A DNA stretch of 64,000 nucleotides from Pleomorphomonas diazotrophica (GTDB taxonomy: Bacteria; Pseudomonadota; Alphaproteobacteria; Rhizobiales; Pleomorphomonadaceae): positions 218,827 through 282,826 of the forward strand of contig NZ_PJNW01000016.1 of assembly GCF_002844595.1 (NCBI RefSeq), read 5' to 3'. Below the pieces are notes generated by a model. The model made no database searches and was not told the origin of the DNA. It saw only the letters and a list, made by a program, of their open reading frames with translations. Positions 13,825 to 47,410 of the stretch are shown piece by piece; the stretch's first letter is position 1, and the number at the start of each line of letters is the position of its first letter. Position numbers and translations under genes: made by a program.

Positions 13825-13835
13825 CTTATCGTTTC

Positions 13836-33764: not shown

Positions 33765-34082
33765 ATGAAGACCTTTGCTATCGCCGCCGTTGCTTTCGCC
33801 GCCATCGCTCTCCCGACCCTGGCTTCCGCCGCGACCTTCTATGACCCGGCCGAGGGCGAGTTCGTGTCGGGTTCGTTGAATGCTGCCGCCACCAACGGCG
33901 ACGCGGCCCGTTACACCCAGAGCGCCACCATCTACGACCCCGCCGAAGGCGAGTTCGTGACGACCAAGGTGTCGGGCGCCCCGGTGATCGCCACGCATGA
34001 CGCCGTCAAGGCCAGCGGCGCGACCATCCGCTTCTACGACCCGGCCGAAGGCGAGTTCGTGAACGTTTCCGCTGGCAACTAA
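33765..34082 (+). CDS. Small secreted protein with three YDPAEGEFV repeats (copy 1)
   Basis: A 105-residue protein that I do not recognise as a named family. It starts with a clear signal peptide (MKTFAIAAVAFAAIALPTLASA). The mature 83 residues carry three exact copies of YDPAEGEFV, at about 26-34, 57-65 and 92-100, with unlike linkers of 20-25 residues. Acidic D/E pairs in each repeat could bind calcium or another cation, but this is a guess. GGAG lies 8 bases before ATG. A twin gene follows at 34323, and each has its own inverted repeat and terminator. Confidence 0.8.
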   Translation: MKTFAIAAVAFAAIALPTLASAATFYDPAEGEFVSGSLNAAATNGDAARYTQSATIYDPAEGEFVTTKVSGAPVIATHDAVKASGATIRFYDPAEGEFVNVSAGN

Positions 34083-34174: not shown

Positions 34175-34322
34175 AAATCCATCCTGTTGTATTGACTTCC
34201 TGCCGCTTTCTCCGTGAAGAGCGACGATCTATATCATCATCATCGAAGCGAGACGAATGATTGGGCTGGATGACAAAAGCTCCCAAGATCTGCCGACGCT
34301 GTCGAATACATGGAGCATGAAA

Positions 34323-34640
34323 ATGAAAACCTTCGCTATCGCCGCTGTTGCTTTCGCCGCCATCGCTCTCCCGACCCTGGCTTCCGCCGAGACCTTCTAT
34401 GACCCCGCCGAGGGCGAGTTCGTTTCGGGTTCGTTGAATGCCGCCGCCACCAACGGCGACGCGGCGCGTTACACCCAGAGCGCCACCATCTACGACCCCG
34501 CCGAAGGCGAGTTCGTGACGACCAAGGTGTCGGGCACTCCGGTGATCGCCACGCATGACGCCGTCAAGGCCGGCGGTGCGACCGTCCGCTTCTACGACCC
34601 GGCCGAAGGCGAGTTCGTGAACGTTCCCGCTGGCAACTGA
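34323..34640 (+). CDS. Small secreted protein with three YDPAEGEFV repeats (copy 2)
   Basis: A 105-residue near-identical twin of the gene at 33765, differing at only a few residues (for example Glu for Ala after the signal peptide, Thr for Ala near 72, Gly for Ser near 84, Val for Ile near 88, Pro for Ser near 103). It has the same signal peptide and three YDPAEGEFV units. I start at ATG 34323, which has GGAG at 7-base spacing and matches copy 1; ATG 34317 is too close to that site. The whole ~560-base unit was duplicated in tandem. Confidence 0.8.
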   Translation: MKTFAIAAVAFAAIALPTLASAETFYDPAEGEFVSGSLNAAATNGDAARYTQSATIYDPAEGEFVTTKVSGTPVIATHDAVKAGGATVRFYDPAEGEFVNVPAGN

Positions 34641-37933: not shown

Positions 37934-38377
37934 TCAGCCGGCGAGCACCATGGCGGCCGTGTTGGATTTCTGCAGCATGTCGGCAAGCGTGGTGCGGTCG
38001 AGCACCTCGGCCATGGCATCCCTCACCTCGGTCATGACGATGCGCACCGAGCAGGTGGAAAGGTCACCACAGTCGTCGCAGGGCTGAAAGGCGGTGCGGC
38101 TGGCGCAGGCAATCGGCGCCAGCGGCCCGTCGAGCGCCCGCACCACCGGCCCGATGGAAATCTCGGCCGGCGGCCGGCTCAGCGCGAAGCCGCCACCCGG
38201 ACCTTTCCAGGAGCGGACGAAGCCGGCGTTCTTGAGATCGCGCATGATGGCATCGAGAAACTTCTTGGAGATGTTCTCGCGCGCGGCGATTTCCGCCACC
38301 TGGACCGCCTTGCCCGGTTCCGATCGGGCGAGATGGACCAGCGCCTTGAGCCCGTATTTGCCCTTCTTGGTCAGCAT
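37934..38377 (-). CDS. Rrf2-family transcriptional regulator
   Basis: A 147-residue regulator. [18 protein letters not shown] and the winged helix [28 protein letters not shown] are characteristic. Three Cys in [11 protein letters not shown] (about 99-109), after an earlier Cys (about 91), could hold a [2Fe-2S] or [4Fe-4S] cluster as in IscR, NsrR or RsrR. It lies 51 bases after the threonine-aldolase gene on the same strand, so it may share that transcript. Confidence 0.88.
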
Positions 38378-39538: not shown

Positions 39539-39989
39539 GTCAACGTCCTCTCTTCCTCGGAAAGCGGAGCGACGCGTGGCTGGGATCCCGTTGGTTGCCG
39601 GTCGGCCACATCCCCCTCTTGCGAAGGGCACCACCTTGCTCGGGAGCAGGTTGGTGTCGGGCGTCTCCCCGACTCTTGATGCATAGATGGCAATTATCAT
39701 CAAGGCCGGAAGGCGGCAACTGCCTGTCGGCAGGCACCGACGGAAACAAGCGCTATCCTCGCGTCCGTGTCTTTTTGCCCACTCCGATCCGCAGACACGG
39801 ACGCCGTCTGCGCCAGACAGGTGGAATCAGAGCTCTCCCTACCTTCCCGTGGGACCACTTGCGGCACATCATGTCGTGGCTTGCCGAACTGCGTCATGTT
39901 GGTCGGCGATGGGTTACGGTTTGTCGCCTGCCGGCGCATCGATTGCGAAACGCATGGCGGACCAGGAAACGAGCGAGGGGATATCGAAT
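39539..39989. promoter_or_regulatory. 451-base divergent region between ltaE and a PLP-enzyme gene
   Basis: No gene is supported. It must carry the promoters for both flanking genes. A GATGGCAATTATCATC imperfect palindrome lies near 39687-39701. An in-frame ATG at 39954 exists for the downstream gene but has no ribosome site, unlike 39990. Confidence 0.4.
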
Positions 39990-41495
<1,506 letters not shown>

Positions 41496-41498
41496 ACG

Positions 41499-42779
41499 AT
41501 GGTGAGGTTTCGCTGCCACGGCTGTGGCGCCGAGGTCGATGCCGGCGTTCGGCTGGCGTTTGGTTGCCCGAACGCCAGGGCAGACGACGATATCGACCAT
41601 GTTCTCGTGGCCGATACCGAGGCGACATCGCCGTCGATCGGCAGCGAAACCGATCCCTTCCTGCGCTACCGCGCATGGCTTTCGCCCTACCGGCTAGCAC
41701 GGTCCTCGGGGTTGCCGGATGCGGCCTGGGTCGATCTCGTCGGAGAGCTCGACCAGGCTCTGACGGCCATCGACGGACGCGGTTTCCGCGTTACGCCCAT
41801 GGCCGAACAACGTCCGCTCGCCAAGGCGCTCGGCCTTTCCGGATCGCTCCTCGTCAAGGACGAGACCGGTAACGTATCGGGCTCCCACAAGGCGCGCCAT
41901 CTGATGGGAGTCATGCTCTACCTGCGTATCCTTGAGGCGGCCGGTTTGCCGGCCGGCGAGGGACTCCGGACGCGGCGCCTGGCGATTGCCTCCTGCGGCA
42001 ACGCCGCGCTCGCCGCCGCCGTCGTGGCGCGGGCCGCCGACTGGCCGCTCGACGTGTTCATCCCGCCCGACGCCGATGGATCCGTAAAGTCGAGGCTCAA
42101 GGAACTCGGCGCAGAAATCACCGTCTGCGACCGGCGACCCGGCGAGGCCGGCGACCCCTGCTATCTCCGCTTCCGCGAGGCGGTTGCCGCCGGCGCCATT
42201 CCCTTCGGCGTTCAAGGCACAGACAACGGCCTAGCGATCGAAGGCGGCCGGACGCTCGCTTTCGAGATGGCCGAAGAATTCAGCCGCATCGGCACGGTGC
42301 CGGATGCACTGTTCGTGCAGGTGGGCGGCGGAGCGCTGGCGAGCGCCCTCGCCCAAGGTTTCGCGCTTGCCCGTACAAATGGGTTGCTGCCCCGGCTTCC
42401 CAAGCTGATTGCGGTGCAGACGACAGGCTGCGCGCCGCTGGCGCGCGCCTGGAACCGCCTCGGAGATACCGATTTGCAGGCCGCGGCGAGGAGGCGTTCG
42501 CAGTTCATGTGGCCGTGGGAGACGCCGCCGACGAGCCTTGCCCACGGCATTCTCGACGACGAGACCTACGATTGGTGGGCGATCGCCGAGGGCATGCGCG
42601 CGAGCGGCGGCTCAACCGTCGTCGTCGACGAGGCACAGGTCGCGGCGGCCTACGAAGCCGGCCGAGAATACACCGACATTGCGGCCTCGCCGACCGGCAC
42701 CGCCGGCCTCGCCGGCGTCATCGCCCAACCCGGGGCTGGCAAGCGGATCGCCGTGATCTTTTCGGGCGTCGGGAGATAA
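41499..42779 (+). CDS. Fold-type II PLP-dependent enzyme, threonine-synthase-like
   Basis: A 426-residue enzyme. The N-terminus has a threonine-synthase-like rubredoxin segment (C6, C9 and C23). The PLP lysine K131 is in SGSHKARHLMG, the Asn loop is SCGNAALAAAV, and the glycine loop is VQVGGGALASALA. No thr pathway genes lie near. Adjacent to another type II PLP gene, with ltaE divergent, it may belong to beta-hydroxy amino acid breakdown. Exact substrate unknown. Confidence 0.75.
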   Translation: MVRFRCHGCGAEVDAGVRLAFGCPNARADDDIDHVLVADTEATSPSIGSETDPFLRYRAWLSPYRLARSSGLPDAAWVDLVGELDQALTAIDGRGFRVTPMAEQRPLAKALGLSGSLLVKDETGNVSGSHKARHLMGVMLYLRILEAAGLPAGEGLRTRRLAIASCGNAALAAAVVARAADWPLDVFIPPDADGSVKSRLKELGAEITVCDRRPGEAGDPCYLRFREAVAAGAIPFGVQGTDNGLAIEGGRTLAFEMAEEFSRIGTVPDALFVQVGGGALASALAQGFALARTNGLLPRLPKLIAVQTTGCAPLARAWNRLGDTDLQAAARRRSQFMWPWETPPTSLAHGILDDETYDWWAIAEGMRASGGSTVVVDEAQVAAAYEAGREYTDIAASPTGTAGLAGVIAQPGAGKRIAVIFSGVGR

Positions 42780-42936: not shown

Positions 42937-44691
42937 TCAGCGCTTGTACTCCGGCAGCACCTGGTAGCTGGTGTGCAGCAGTTCGTGCGCCTCGTGACCG
43001 CCGATCTCGCCAAGGAAGTCGGCGTAGAGCTGCTTGATGTACGGGTTGTGGTGCGAGCAGCGCCAGAGACCGGCCTGATCCTCCTGATAGAGGCCGGCGG
43101 CTCGCTTGGAGCGCAGCTCGTTGGTCGCCCCGTAAGGCTGCCCGCCACCACCGACGCAGCCACCGGCGCAGGCCATCACCTCGATGAAGTGATAGGGCAC
43201 CTCCTCACCGGCTTCACGAGCGGCACGCACCTTTTCCAGCACCTCTTCGACATTGGCGAGCCCATGGGCGACGGCCACGCGGATTTCCTTGCCGGCAACG
43301 GTAAGCCTGCCCTCCTTGACGCCTTCGAGGCCGCGGGTCATCTCGAAATCGACACGCGGCGCGTCGTGGCCGGTGACGTAGTAATGGGCCGTGCGAAGCG
43401 CCGCTTCCATGACGCCACCGGTGGCACCGAAGATGGTGCCGGCACCTGTGTAAGCGCCCAGCATGTGGTCCGGCTGCTCTTCGGGGATTGAGACGAAGTC
43501 GATGCCGGATTGCTTGATCATGCGCGCAAACTCTCGCGTGGTCAGCGACACATCCACGTCCTGATAGCCCGAAGAGCTCATCTCCTTGGAACGGATGATC
43601 TCGGACTTCTTGGCCGTGCAGGGCATGACCGAAACCACGAAGACCTTGGCCGGATCGATCCCCATCTTGTGTGCGTAATAAGTCTTCGACAGGGCGCCGA
43701 CCATCTCGTGCGGCGACTTGCAGCTCGAGAAATGGTCGATCATGTCGCCATGGAACTTTTCCATGAAGTCGACCCAGCCCGGGCAGCAACTGGTGATCAG
43801 CGGCAGCGCGCCGGTTCCGTCGAGAAGGCGACTCTTGAACTCGGAGGCTTCCTCGATGATCGTCAGGTCGGCGCCGAAGTTGGTGTCGAACACCGCCTTG
43901 AAGCCCATCCGCCGCAGCGAGGCGTAGATCTTGCCGGTGAGGTTGGCGCCGATCGGGAAACCAAAGGCTTCGCCGACGGCAACACGCACGGCGGGCGCGA
44001 TCTGAACCACGCAATAAGCGTCCGGATCCTGCAGCTTGTTCCAGACGTCGACGGTCTCGTCATACTCGACGATGGCGCCGGTCGGACAATGGGCCGAACA
44101 CTGGCCGCAGCGGACGCAAGGCGAATCCGCGAGCGGAATGTCGCCGGCCGCCGCAATGCGGGTCTTGAAGCCGCGATTGAGGAAGCTCAGTGCCCAGACG
44201 TTCTGATGCTGCTGGCAGACGGTGATGCAGCGACCGCACAACACGCATTTGCGCGGGTCGAGCACGATGCTCCTGGTGGAGGTGTCGAGGGGCAGATCGG
44301 GAACAACGTTCGGCAGGTCGGAGCCGGTCATGCCGAAGTCGGCGGCGAGCGCCTGCAGCTCGCAGTTCTGGTTACGCAGGCAGGTCAGGCATTCGTTGGG
44401 ATGCCTTGACAGCGTCAGTTCGAGAACACCGCGCCGCACCTCGACGATTTCCGGCGTCTCGGTCAGGATATCCATGCCCTCGTCGATCGGCGTGCAGCAG
44501 GACCGCAGCATTTTGCCGGTGTTTTTCACCTTAACGATGCAAATGCCGCAGGCGCCGGTCGCCTCAAGGTCCGGATGCTTGCAGAGCGTCGGAATCTTCA
44601 CGTGCACCTTGCGCGCCGCGTCCAGGATGGTGGTTCCCGGAGCGACCTCCACGGGCACGCCGTTAATCGTAGCGTTGATCATATTGGTCAT
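42937..44691 (-). CDS. hndD: [FeFe]-hydrogenase catalytic subunit, HndD/HydA type
   Basis: A 584-residue iron-sulfur enzyme. In order it has a plant-type [2Fe-2S] site (C37, C48, C51, C65), a His-ligated [4Fe-4S] site (H97, C101, C104, C110) and two ferredoxin clusters (C149-C159, C192-C202). The H-cluster domain follows. All three H-cluster motifs are intact: TSCCPGW (300-306), MPCTAKKSE (356-364) and EVMACAGGCVGGGGQP (504-519), so it should make or oxidise H2. ATG 44691 is chosen by the ferredoxin start. It ends the leftward hndA-hndC-hndD operon. Maturases HydEFG are not in the window. Confidence 0.92.
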   Translation of the reverse strand: MTNMINATINGVPVEVAPGTTILDAARKVHVKIPTLCKHPDLEATGACGICIVKVKNTGKMLRSCCTPIDEGMDILTETPEIVEVRRGVLELTLSRHPNECLTCLRNQNCELQALAADFGMTGSDLPNVVPDLPLDTSTRSIVLDPRKCVLCGRCITVCQQHQNVWALSFLNRGFKTRIAAAGDIPLADSPCVRCGQCSAHCPTGAIVEYDETVDVWNKLQDPDAYCVVQIAPAVRVAVGEAFGFPIGANLTGKIYASLRRMGFKAVFDTNFGADLTIIEEASEFKSRLLDGTGALPLITSCCPGWVDFMEKFHGDMIDHFSSCKSPHEMVGALSKTYYAHKMGIDPAKVFVVSVMPCTAKKSEIIRSKEMSSSGYQDVDVSLTTREFARMIKQSGIDFVSIPEEQPDHMLGAYTGAGTIFGATGGVMEAALRTAHYYVTGHDAPRVDFEMTRGLEGVKEGRLTVAGKEIRVAVAHGLANVEEVLEKVRAAREAGEEVPYHFIEVMACAGGCVGGGGQPYGATNELRSKRAAGLYQEDQAGLWRCSHHNPYIKQLYADFLGEIGGHEAHELLHTSYQVLPEYKR

Positions 44692-44717
44692 TTCGATCAC
44701 TTCTCGATCTCGGAAAA

Positions 44718-46373
44718 TCAGGCTTCGGCGGCCACGGGCTTCTTGAGGCGTTCGGTGAACTCCGACCCGAAGTGCTTGAGCGCCGACAGCACCGGGTTGG
44801 GCGCGGTCTGGCCAAGCGCGCAAAGCGAGCCTTTCTGCATGGCCTGCGCGATCATCCTGATGTTCGCGATGTCCTCCTCAGTGCCCTCGCCGGCGACGAT
44901 CTTGTCGAGAAGGCCCAGCATCTGCGTGCCGCCGATGCGGCAGGGCGCGCACTTGCCGCAGGATTCGTCGACGCAGAAGTCGAGATAGAAACGGGCAAGC
45001 TCGACGACGCTGTCCTGATCGTCGATGACGATGAGACCACCCGAGCCCATCATCGACCCGAGCTGTTGCAGGTGCTCGTAGGAAATCGGCGTGTCGAACT
45101 GGCTCTCGGGGATCATGCCGCCCGACGGGCCGCCGGTCTGCACCGCCTTCACCTTGCGATCCGTGCCGGTGCCGCCACCGATCGTCTCGACGATCTCGCG
45201 GATGGTGATGCCCATAGGGACCTCGACGAGGCCGTTGTGGGCGATCTTGCCCGTCAGGGCGAACACCTTGGTACCCTTGGATTTTTCGGTTCCCTTGGCG
45301 GCGAACCAGTCGGCACCCTTCAGCAGGATGCGCGGCACATTGGCCAGCGTCTCGACGTTGTTGACGCAGCTCGGCTTGTTCCAGAGACCCTTGACCGAGG
45401 GGAACGGCGGTCGCGGACGCGGCGTGCCGCGCTTGCCCTCGACCGAGGCGATCAGCGCGGTCTCCTCGCCGCAGACGAAAGCACCGGCGCCCAGGCGGAC
45501 GTCGAAGTCGAAGCTCCAGCCGGAGTTCAGGATGTTGCGACCGACGAGACCGGCCTGGCGTGCCTGACGGATGGCTTTCTCGACACGATCGACGGCGAGC
45601 GGATATTCGGCGCGGATGTAGAAGACGCCATTGGTGGCGTTCATGGCCCGAGCCGCGATCATCATGCCCTCGATCACCGCATGCGGATCGCCTTCGAGAA
45701 CCGAGCGGTCCATGAAGGCACCGGGATCTCCCTCGTCACCGTTGCAGATGACGTATTTGACGTCGGATTCCACACGGCGGGCGAAATCCCACTTGAGCCC
45801 CGTCGGATAGCCGGCACCACCGCGCCCACGCAGGCCGGAGGCCAGCATCTCCTGACAGATCTCCTCGGCCGACATGGTCAGGGCCTTCCTGAGGCCCTGA
45901 TAGCCGCCGTGCACGAGATAGTCGGCCAGCTTTTCCGGATCGGCATGACCGTTGTTGGAGAGAACGACGCGCTCCTGCATGGCAAAGAAGGCAGCATGGA
46001 GATCCATGACATGCGCACCGAGCGGTCCCACGGGATCGGCAACCTTTTCGCCTCTGGCGATCGGCGCGACCACCTCGGTGACAAGACGCGAGGCAAGATC
46101 GGGTGTCATCTCGCTGAACAAGGTGTCCTCATGCACCTTGGAGGTCATGCGAACGAGCGGCCCCTTGCTGCAAAGGCCCATGCAACCCGTGCCGCCAACC
46201 TGGACCTTGCCGTCCAGCCCCATCTCGGCAAGATCGGATTTGATACGCGCGACGATGTCCGCCGCGCCAGATGATTGACAGCCCGTACTCGAACAGCACA
46301 CCAGGCGCACGTCCATTGCCTGCTGCTTGGCGAGCTCGGCCGCAGCTTTCACTTCAAGCTCTTCCGGCTTCAT
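44718..46373 (-). CDS. hndC: NAD(P)H-binding flavoprotein subunit of the hydrogenase, NuoF/HndC type
   Basis: A 551-residue protein. A thioredoxin-like [2Fe-2S] domain is N-terminal (CCSSTGC near 26-32, GTGCMGLC near 61-68). The NuoF core has GRGGAGYPTGLKW and CNGDEGDPGAFMDR for FMN and NADH, and ESCGKCAPCRIG plus a later Cys for [4Fe-4S]. It lacks the C-terminal two-cluster ferredoxin domain of Thermotoga HydB. It passes electrons between NAD(P)H and the catalytic subunit. Its start lies 42 bases after hndA and its stop 26 bases before the hndD start. Confidence 0.9.
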   Translation of the reverse strand: MKPEELEVKAAAELAKQQAMDVRLVCCSSTGCQSSGAADIVARIKSDLAEMGLDGKVQVGGTGCMGLCSKGPLVRMTSKVHEDTLFSEMTPDLASRLVTEVVAPIARGEKVADPVGPLGAHVMDLHAAFFAMQERVVLSNNGHADPEKLADYLVHGGYQGLRKALTMSAEEICQEMLASGLRGRGGAGYPTGLKWDFARRVESDVKYVICNGDEGDPGAFMDRSVLEGDPHAVIEGMMIAARAMNATNGVFYIRAEYPLAVDRVEKAIRQARQAGLVGRNILNSGWSFDFDVRLGAGAFVCGEETALIASVEGKRGTPRPRPPFPSVKGLWNKPSCVNNVETLANVPRILLKGADWFAAKGTEKSKGTKVFALTGKIAHNGLVEVPMGITIREIVETIGGGTGTDRKVKAVQTGGPSGGMIPESQFDTPISYEHLQQLGSMMGSGGLIVIDDQDSVVELARFYLDFCVDESCGKCAPCRIGGTQMLGLLDKIVAGEGTEEDIANIRMIAQAMQKGSLCALGQTAPNPVLSALKHFGSEFTERLKKPVAAEA

Positions 46374-46415
46374 GATTGCTCTACTTCATGTCTGGAATTG
46401 TTGGTTTTCTGCGGC

Positions 46416-46955
46416 CTATTCGGCGTCGGTGGCCTCGGCGGCAACGTGCATCGGCTGGTCTTGCTTGACCTGTTCGAGCAGCCCGTGGGCATTGGTAACG
46501 TCCTGCTTGCCGTAAACCTTGCCGTTGACCGAGGCGAGCGGCGCCAGACCGCAGCAGCCGAGGCAGCGCACCCCTTGAAGGTGATACTCGCCGTCAGGCG
46601 TGCTCTCGCCTTCCTTGATCCCGAGCTCGTCCTCGATGCCATGCAGCAGCTTTGGCGAACCCTTGATGTGGCAGGCCGTTCCCGTGCAGACCGAGATGAT
46701 GTATTTGCCGGGACTTTCCAGCTTGAAGTAATTGTAGAAGGTCAGCACCTCGTAGATGTTGGCCAGCGGCACCCCCATCTCGCGGCCGAGCTTCATGGCG
46801 GATTCACGCGGAACATAGCCAAGTCGGCCCTGCAGCTCATGCAGGGCCATGATCAGGCTGCCGCGCTTTTTCTTCCACTTCTGAGCCAGGACGATGATTT
46901 CGTCCTCCGGCGCCTCTTCGATCTCAACGTCATCCACTGCTGTGTCGTCAGTCAT
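46416..46955 (-). CDS. hndA: NuoE-like [2Fe-2S] subunit of the hydrogenase, HndA type
   Basis: A 179-residue cytoplasmic protein. The thioredoxin-like [2Fe-2S] site uses C90 and C95 (CTGTACHIKG) and C131 and C135 (CLGCCGLAP). The N-terminal helices contain ALHELQGRLGYVPRESA, as in complex I NuoE. ATG 46955 is used; an upstream TTG lacks a site. It is the first gene of the operon, followed by hndC and hndD, and supplies an electron-carrying or bifurcation-related cluster. Confidence 0.9.
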   Translation of the reverse strand: MTDDTAVDDVEIEEAPEDEIIVLAQKWKKKRGSLIMALHELQGRLGYVPRESAMKLGREMGVPLANIYEVLTFYNYFKLESPGKYIISVCTGTACHIKGSPKLLHGIEDELGIKEGESTPDGEYHLQGVRCLGCCGLAPLASVNGKVYGKQDVTNAHGLLEQVKQDQPMHVAAEATDAE

Positions 46956-47410
46956 CTTTCTCGTCCGTGCAGCTTTGTTTTTATTCAATCGATTTAGTTG
47001 CCAAGCGAACGCATCGACCTCAACCAGTTCTGCAGGTTAGCGAGGAAACGTCCCCATCACGCCACCTTCATGTCGCCCCGAATATTAAGATTTTTATTGT
47101 CATGTTTTCGGGCCATCAGGCTTTTATCGGCGAGCCATTCGCTTGAACACTTCGAGAGGCTTTCACATCGTCAGCCGATCATCAAGAGTATAGTTCCCTA
47201 TACGATGAAATCAGTATTCGATCCGAAACGTTACTAAGATCGGCGTATTCTATTCCACACCGGATACAAAAATGCAGAAGCAGACACTCTCTACCTCGGA
47301 CGCCGAGGATAGCGTTGAGCGGTGGTCCGCTCGTGGCGGGAGATCACGGGCTCGCAGAAATGCCGTAAACGCCTCGTATCGACCTTACTGACAATGACAA
47401 GGGCGATACG
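46956..47410. promoter_or_regulatory. 455-base divergent AT-rich region before the hydrogenase operon
   Basis: No gene is supported. The central part (47080-47240) is strikingly AT-rich for this genome. The hydrogenase promoter must lie here. I searched by eye for a full FNR/FixK box (TTGAT-N4-ATCAA) and a sigma-54 site and found only an ATCAA half near 47181, so oxygen control is not shown by sequence. Confidence 0.45.

Follow-up and report, generated by a model that had tools for sequence, protein, structure and literature searches.

The hydABC operon of the alphaproteobacterium Pleomorphomonas diazotrophica bears on the question of what in HydABC enables electron bifurcation. This operon encodes a trimeric [FeFe]-hydrogenase whose NuoF-like beta subunit, HydB, appears to have lost its ferredoxin arm, and the loss bears on whether the enzyme bifurcates or plainly depends on NADH. 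The window that was analysed comprises 64,000 nucleotides (C8:218827-282826 of the 4.53 Mb genome), and genes just to its left are given in the coordinates of L014 (C8:205000-224999), in which the window starts at position 13828.

The hydABC operon and its genomic surroundings

An earlier note on this DNA had placed a trimeric [FeFe]-hydrogenase operon at 42937-46955, and these coordinates are correct. Three adjacent minus-strand genes form a real and intact operon (Table 1), and the claimed genes, domains and H-cluster motifs are confirmed. The reading as a complete trimeric NAD-linked enzyme is supported, and so is the claim of rarity in the class; what the note missed was the loss of the HydB ferredoxin arm. 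HydA additionally contains Fer2_4, NADH-G_4Fe-4S_3 and Fer4 domains (Pfam), its cluster-binding cysteines are intact, and the H-cluster motifs L1, L2 and L3 are present with their cysteines (TSCCPGW, MPCTAKKSE and EVMACAGGCVGGGGQP). The domain and family scores of hydABC exclude a chance match. With 788 bits, HydA exceeds the curated cut-off (765) of the NCBIfam model NF040763 'NADH-dependent, group A6', but because the Thermotoga maritima control genome likewise scores over this cut-off, the name of the model is no proof of NADH dependence. Comparison with four genus members gave dN/dS values of 0.036-0.173 for hydABC, indicating purifying selection.

The operon stands alone between plus-strand frames on either side, and no extra ferredoxin gene is located between or directly beside hydC, hydB and hydA. 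Allowing one mismatch at most, an FNR-type site (TTGAT-N4-ATCAA) was found nowhere in the window (0.83 expected) and thus not upstream of hydC, and of the 16 sigma-54-like matches in the window with at most two mismatches (25 expected) none falls into 46956-47290. A diaminopropionate ammonia-lyase gene flanks an A6 operon of Peptoclostridium (L043), much as two genes for PLP-type enzymes adjoin hydA here.

Table 1. Location of hydABC, of the maturation genes and of other features (window positions unless another coordinate system is named)
Feature	Position	Strand	Remarks
Two small frames	33765-34082 and 34257-34640		shared secreted-type start MKTFAIAAVAF...; likely a tandem duplication
Rrf2-family regulator gene	37934-38377	minus	about 4.6 kb from hydA; TIGR00738 124 bits, cut-off 73
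Two PLP-type enzyme genes	39687-42779	plus	cysteine-synthase-like and threonine-synthase-like; both under family cut-offs
Threonine-synthase-like gene	41499-42779	plus	left neighbour of hydABC, convergent
hydA, catalytic subunit, M3 type, with H-cluster	42937-44691	minus	584 aa; PF02906 306 bits, PF02256 76 bits
hydB stop codon	44718-44720	minus	26 bases before hydA
hydB, NuoF-like beta subunit	44718-46373	minus	551 aa; PF01512 161 bits, PF10589 109 bits; N-terminal [2Fe-2S] domain, FMN/NADH site, SLBB, B1 [4Fe-4S]; without B2 ligands and C-terminal 2[4Fe-4S] arm
hydC, NuoE-like gamma subunit	46416-46955	minus	179 aa; PF01257 144 bits; one [2Fe-2S] cluster expected
Region upstream of hydC	46956-47290		scanned for FNR-type and sigma-54-like sites
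Right neighbouring frame	47411	plus
Hybrid-cluster protein gene	L014:4893-6479		directly upstream of hydE
hydE	L014:6916-7965	plus	306 bits, cut-off 254.6
hydF	L014:8604-9845	minus	539 bits, cut-off 325.6
Aspartate-ammonia-lyase-like gene	L014:9862-11253	minus	between hydG and hydF
hydG	L014:11278-12678	minus	513-514 bits, cut-off 312.2
Second [FeFe]-hydrogenase	L015:9979-13948		contig C9, about 51-55 kb; HydA 616 aa
Frame of 1559 aa	C3:53072-57205		partial TIGR02176 similarity, 195 bits, cut-off 911

Maturation genes, of which the earlier note had spoken in general terms, are present: hydE, hydF and hydG, all over their cut-offs, sit 1.1-6.9 kb left of the window start. TIGR03957 proved to be the wrong maturase model, its best match being the hydE gene. 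Neither these genes nor a second [FeFe]-hydrogenase on another contig had figured in the note. The HydA of the second enzyme adjoins a fusion protein in which a DPD-II 4Fe-4S domain and a GltD-type flavoprotein accompany an NADH_4Fe-4S domain of NuoF type. In the HydA tree this second HydA is joined by relatives belonging to two further families in the order. The genome also contains nifD (847 bits, cut-off 654) and one clear NiFe-hydrogenase large subunit (769 bits), besides two partial NiFe matches that score weakly (33 and 24 bits). Over the respective cut-offs, no RnfC and no pyruvate:ferredoxin oxidoreductase (TIGR02176) was detected in the genome.

The C-terminal end and the flavin pocket of HydB

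As judged from its sequence, HydB is a bifurcating-type beta subunit that ends just past cluster B1, without the B3/B4 arm and with the B2/Zn ligands replaced or absent. Aligned with solved bifurcating-type HydB chains it runs in parallel to about residue 544 and stops at residue 551, whereas full-length relatives continue with H-X5-C-X3/4-C followed by two CxxCxxCxxxC motifs. By Pfam, a Fer4 domain is absent from this HydB and from that of another genus member (L160), in contrast to the full-length HydB of L042, which has one at its C-terminus. HydB proteins were classed as armless if neither H-X5-C-X3/4-C nor CxxCxxCxxxC occurs after B1, a motif rule set after a first inspection of the beta ends. 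Among the 14 genus genomes searched, all 11 carriers share the same 73-residue tail after B1, and none has a CxxCxxCxxxC motif within 400 nt downstream of hydB in any of the three frames. This identical end in all 11 carriers, together with armless ends elsewhere, rules out a frameshift or a misassembly at the 3' end of hydB. Two other armless HydB proteins (L150 and L151) have tails of 102-103 residues with short cysteine-rich ends that could form a metal site, and the HydB of a Pelotomaculum MAG (L095, 8244-9938), found elsewhere on the HydB tree, keeps the B2 motif and has no arm.

The B2/Zn set (Cys438, Cys476 or Thr, His525, Cys531 and Cys536 in A. mobile numbering, taken from the accessible part of PMC9304861 and counted out on the alignment) is represented in HydB by S455, V493 and R542 in place of C438, C476 and H525, and C531 and C536 are absent. 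Among the rows used for residue counts, from which, as from the careful HydB tree, two long NuoF rows (L142 and L043) were omitted, C438 is Cys in 39 of 39 full-length rows versus 1 of 24 armless rows, the exception being the Opitutales row L052, and H525 is His in all 34 scorable full-length rows versus none of 22 scorable armless rows. Position C476 varies in both kinds alike and so is not a clean marker. The ligands of the N-terminal [2Fe-2S] cluster B5 are present (C27, C32, C64 and C68) and are kept in 21-22 of the 24 armless rows, the remainder being gaps except for one Gly.

Around the flavin, HydB carries A232, M234 and F367 (placed by motif in T. maritima numbering, without a displayed alignment to T. 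maritima HydB) and GGPSG, which are bifurcating-type residues. The same combination occurs in 24 of 24 armless rows, six of which come from Pleomorphomonas, in 39 of 39 full-length rows and in neither of two NuoF rows; a partial HydB outside the 24 armless rows (L146) reads GGVSGG. R223, which adjoins the NADH motif, is Arg in all 39 full-length rows, whereas nine of the 24 armless rows have Ser or Ala there. Losey et al. (PMC7311640, in the text available) list A/E232, M234, F367 and GGPSG as bifurcation residues, consider them more diagnostic than cluster number, and ascribe NuoF-type T/S232, K/S/A234 and Y367 to non-bifurcating enzymes; HydB has A, M and F at these positions. On sequence grounds, all three Losey residue criteria thus point to bifurcation and against a ferredoxin-independent enzyme, and for this HydB the published residue rules conflict with the cluster-content rule.

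An AlphaFold model of HydB (36-row alignment, mean pLDDT 88.8) was compared with the PDB by Foldseek. All 12 top-ranking matches are beta subunits, from complexes of HydABC, Nfn/Stn or aldehyde-oxidoreductase type, namely NfnABC of T. sibiricus and C. saccharolyticus, HydABC of T. kivui, T. maritima and A. woodii, an aldehyde oxidoreductase and StnABC; seven of the 12 titles contain 'electron bifurcating' and the other five belong to T. maritima HydABC (three) and T. sibiricus NfnABC (two). TM-scores by query are 0.87-0.92 for 7q4v, 7p5h, 7p92, 7p8n and 8a6t; for 8a5e, 7q4w and 7t2r, whose modelled chains are shorter, they are 0.65-0.72. FdsB (41%) and NuoF of complex I rank behind the bifurcating-type beta subunits.

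FdsB has an N-terminal thioredoxin-like domain and no arm. This subunit of the NAD-linked formate dehydrogenase (6vw7, 6vw8) matches the fold of HydB over its whole length, with 41% identity and a chain of about 513 residues, but its partner is a formate dehydrogenase. Moreover, residues of the non-bifurcating type are ascribed to FdsB-like enzymes in the accessible text of PMC7311640.

Distribution and descent of the armless form

The earlier claim that such enzymes are uncommon in the class holds: a group-A [FeFe] HydA (E<=1e-80) is found in 19 of 385 class genomes and in 19 of 297 order genomes, the source genome being in both sets, and of these sets 12 class genomes and six order genomes, respectively, exceed the A6 cut-off, all six of the latter being Pleomorphomonas. 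This HydB, at 89-100% identity, occurs in 11 of 14 Pleomorphomonas genomes; of the remaining three, G180 matches only at 49%, with a protein of a different type, and the other two (completeness 86 and 89%) gave no match. The 18 other class genomes comprise 11 with armless HydB, four with full-length HydB, one of NuoF type and two without a beta subunit, so that 11 of the 16 scored are armless. A cross-phylum sample consisted of the best 80 of at least 563 confirmed relatives by HydA similarity, which is no census and from which records near the source genome may be absent. It contains 66 full-length, 8 armless, one lacking the arm yet retaining B2 (L095), one fusion, one NuoF-type and three unscored loci that have no beta end, the arm being kept in 66 of 77 scored relatives among these best 80. 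Its armless loci, whose MAG taxon labels might be wrong through misbinning, are a Chloroflexi-labelled fen MAG (L044), an Azospirillum-labelled MAG (L051), Opitutales (L052), Alphaproteobacteria (L054), Candidatus Erginobacter (L057), a proteobacterium (L066), Rhodospirillaceae (L067) and Alphaproteobacteria from a rumen MAG (L069). Today the armless operon occurs chiefly in Alphaproteobacteria.

Trees were computed from rows that omit 28 Bacillota loci and beta subunits with fewer than 330 aligned residues. In the HydB tree from all columns (quick search) the 24 armless rows require one change (support 79), and 23 of them fall into a starred set (97*). After removal of the columns from about residue 450 onwards, a careful search also gave one change (support 66/89); the armless grouping appears in 65% of 200 bootstrap trees, with a 5-95% range of 1-2 changes, and the armless set itself is unstarred, the smallest starred set beyond the genus consisting of the 24 armless and 8 full-length rows. 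On the HydB tree the armless proteins thus form a single, modestly supported group within the bifurcating type. As armless rows are nested inside full-length rows when the HydB tree is rooted with NuoF, loss of the arm rather than primitive absence is the simpler reading, and the arm and the B2/Zn site were probably lost once.

The phylogeny of the catalytic subunit, which the earlier note had proposed as a check, joins Pleomorphomonas to L044 (99*) but does not unite the armless rows: 16 others form a second group (85), and three changes are needed, with starred branches forcing at least two, HydA rows being labelled by the nearest beta subunit in the locus so that a second HydA such as L078_15005 is possibly mislabelled. 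Holding the 25 armless rows together was not rejected by the AU test (77 rows, p 0.179; L142, L154 and L155-L158 omitted), and without the Opitutales row L052 the constrained tree scored better (p 0.82). Transfer of the operon between phyla is likely.

Predicted function and rival explanations

The bifurcating HydABC/BfuABC complexes of A. woodii (7q4v), T. maritima (7p5h) and T. kivui (8a6t), together with the NiFe-HydABCSL beta subunit (7t2r), are near known counterparts. They share with the Pleomorphomonas enzyme the set of subunits, the flavin, NADH and SLBB residues of HydB, the N-terminal [2Fe-2S] domain and the fold, and differ from it in possessing the B2/Zn-site ligands and the C-terminal B3/B4 arm. 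An ordinary bifurcating group A3 enzyme is ruled out by the lack of B2-B4. The absence of B3/B4 and the predicted ferredoxin independence are instead shared with the non-bifurcating, NADH-dependent enzymes of Syntrophomonas wolfei (Hyd1ABC) and Syntrophus aciditrophicus (HydAB), but those enzymes have NuoF-type residues whereas the present HydB combines bifurcating-type residues with N-terminal ligands, and an S. wolfei-type enzyme is ruled out by the pocket residues. Similar to the S. wolfei type is the sub-type II that Zheng and Huang described in 2024 (PMC11406978); it is also without B5, the ligands of which are retained by HydB here.

The hydABC gene set is already known from Pleomorphomonas: Table 1 of PMC4967309 lists NuoE, NuoF and two M3 HydA for Pleomorphomonas oryzae, and HymABC-like sets are also reported there for gut Azospirillum CAG:239 and Acetobacter CAG:977 (Degli Esposti et al. 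2016). As compared by gene set, not by sequence, these are very probably of the same kind as the operon studied here. The accessible part of that article describes the gene set, and the missing arm and its meaning are not in it. What is new is the armless HydB with a bifurcating-type pocket, of which literature searches found no description, although an unremarked sequence in the Losey supplementary tables is possible.

In published models, as far as given in the parts available of PMC9304861, PMC11406978 and PMC9499530, ferredoxin exchange is carried by B3/B4 and gated by B2 or a Zn hinge, and according to PMC9499530 (see also PMC9304861) every characterised bifurcating [FeFe] enzyme possesses B3/B4. 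The enzymes of S. wolfei and S. aciditrophicus, whose HydB contains fewer clusters, are described as forming H2 from NADH without ferredoxin, and a chain NADH-FMN-B1-HydA-H-cluster has been proposed for the former (excerpts of PMC7311640, PMC6288185). From such structures and enzymology we infer that the loss of B2-B4 would abolish ferredoxin coupling. With B2-B4 gone and a short chain as in S. wolfei, an uncoupled, reversible NAD(H) hydrogenase is therefore predicted, and the lack of RnfC and of a canonical PFOR over cut-off was counted in favour of ferredoxin independence. The enzyme is thus likely to be a ferredoxin-independent NAD(H) hydrogenase descended from a bifurcating ancestor, whose HydB would have lost the B3/B4 arm and the B2/Zn site and kept the flavin/NADH pocket. 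The soluble HydABC would move electrons reversibly between H2 and NAD(H), passing from NADH over FMN and B1 of HydB to the Fe-S clusters of HydA and the H-cluster, and the [2Fe-2S] clusters of HydC and of the HydB N-terminus would be side sites.

An enzyme that still bifurcates, its low-potential electron leaving via the N-terminal [2Fe-2S] cluster or a ferredoxin docked elsewhere, would account for the invariant pocket residues and largely retained B5 ligands of the armless rows, and would suit the proposal of Feng et al. that FMN and neighbouring clusters are the bifurcation site (PMC9304861, text in part). Nevertheless, the mechanisms in the published excerpts use B2 and B3/B4, both of which are gone here, and no additional ferredoxin gene accompanies hydABC, so that continued bifurcation seems unlikely. 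Linkage to NADP(H), which the earlier note had left open beside NAD(H), is more doubtful still: no specific support for it was found, among [FeFe] enzymes whose cofactor is known the nearest ones use NAD(H), and the NADP-linked [FeFe] complex of C. autoethanogenum is larger and includes formate dehydrogenase (PMC6288185, available portion). A silent or decaying operon, or a HydB that is short through an assembly artefact, is highly improbable; the missing FNR-type site upstream of hydC would fit silence, but the low dN/dS, the intact HydA cysteines, the invariant HydB end within the genus and the armless ends in many other genomes all speak against these readings.

As to direction, the earlier note had suggested H2 formation; as far as sequence can tell, hydABC could equally oxidise H2. 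A main role in oxidising H2 with formation of NADH, by which H2 released by nitrogenase or another hydrogenase would be recycled, is compatible with a ferredoxin-independent NAD(H) enzyme, differs from it in physiology only, and is a real possibility that falls somewhat short of an expectation. It fits the presence of nifD and of a NiFe large subunit, and with NADH as sole donor, at NADH/NAD+ ratios of 1-5, the S. aciditrophicus enzyme is reported to bring H2 no higher than about 2-40 Pa (PMC7311640, as excerpted). On the other hand, recycling could be done by other hydrogenases, and the armless relatives include Alphaproteobacteria with 0.9-2.3 Mb assemblies and the rumen MAG L069, in which fermentative H2 release is plausible. 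H2 formation from CO is described for a Pleomorphomonas-like isolate in the accessible text of PMC5603099, not necessarily via this enzyme.

On balance, we favour a mostly alphaproteobacterial HydABC clade in which a bifurcating enzyme would have lost the arm and B2 and kept its pocket, so that pocket residues would not suffice for bifurcation and ferredoxin-free NADH hydrogenases would have arisen by a second route, independent of the first. If this is true, the clade represents a natural deletion experiment on the parts needed for electron splitting; should the armless enzyme bifurcate after all, bifurcation does not require the arm, contrary to current models. As the pocket-residue and cluster-content rules predict opposite outcomes here, a single enzyme purified from a member that can be cultured would decide between them. 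For the Alphaproteobacteria, the armless operon suggests a route by which they may have gained ferredoxin-free H2 metabolism.
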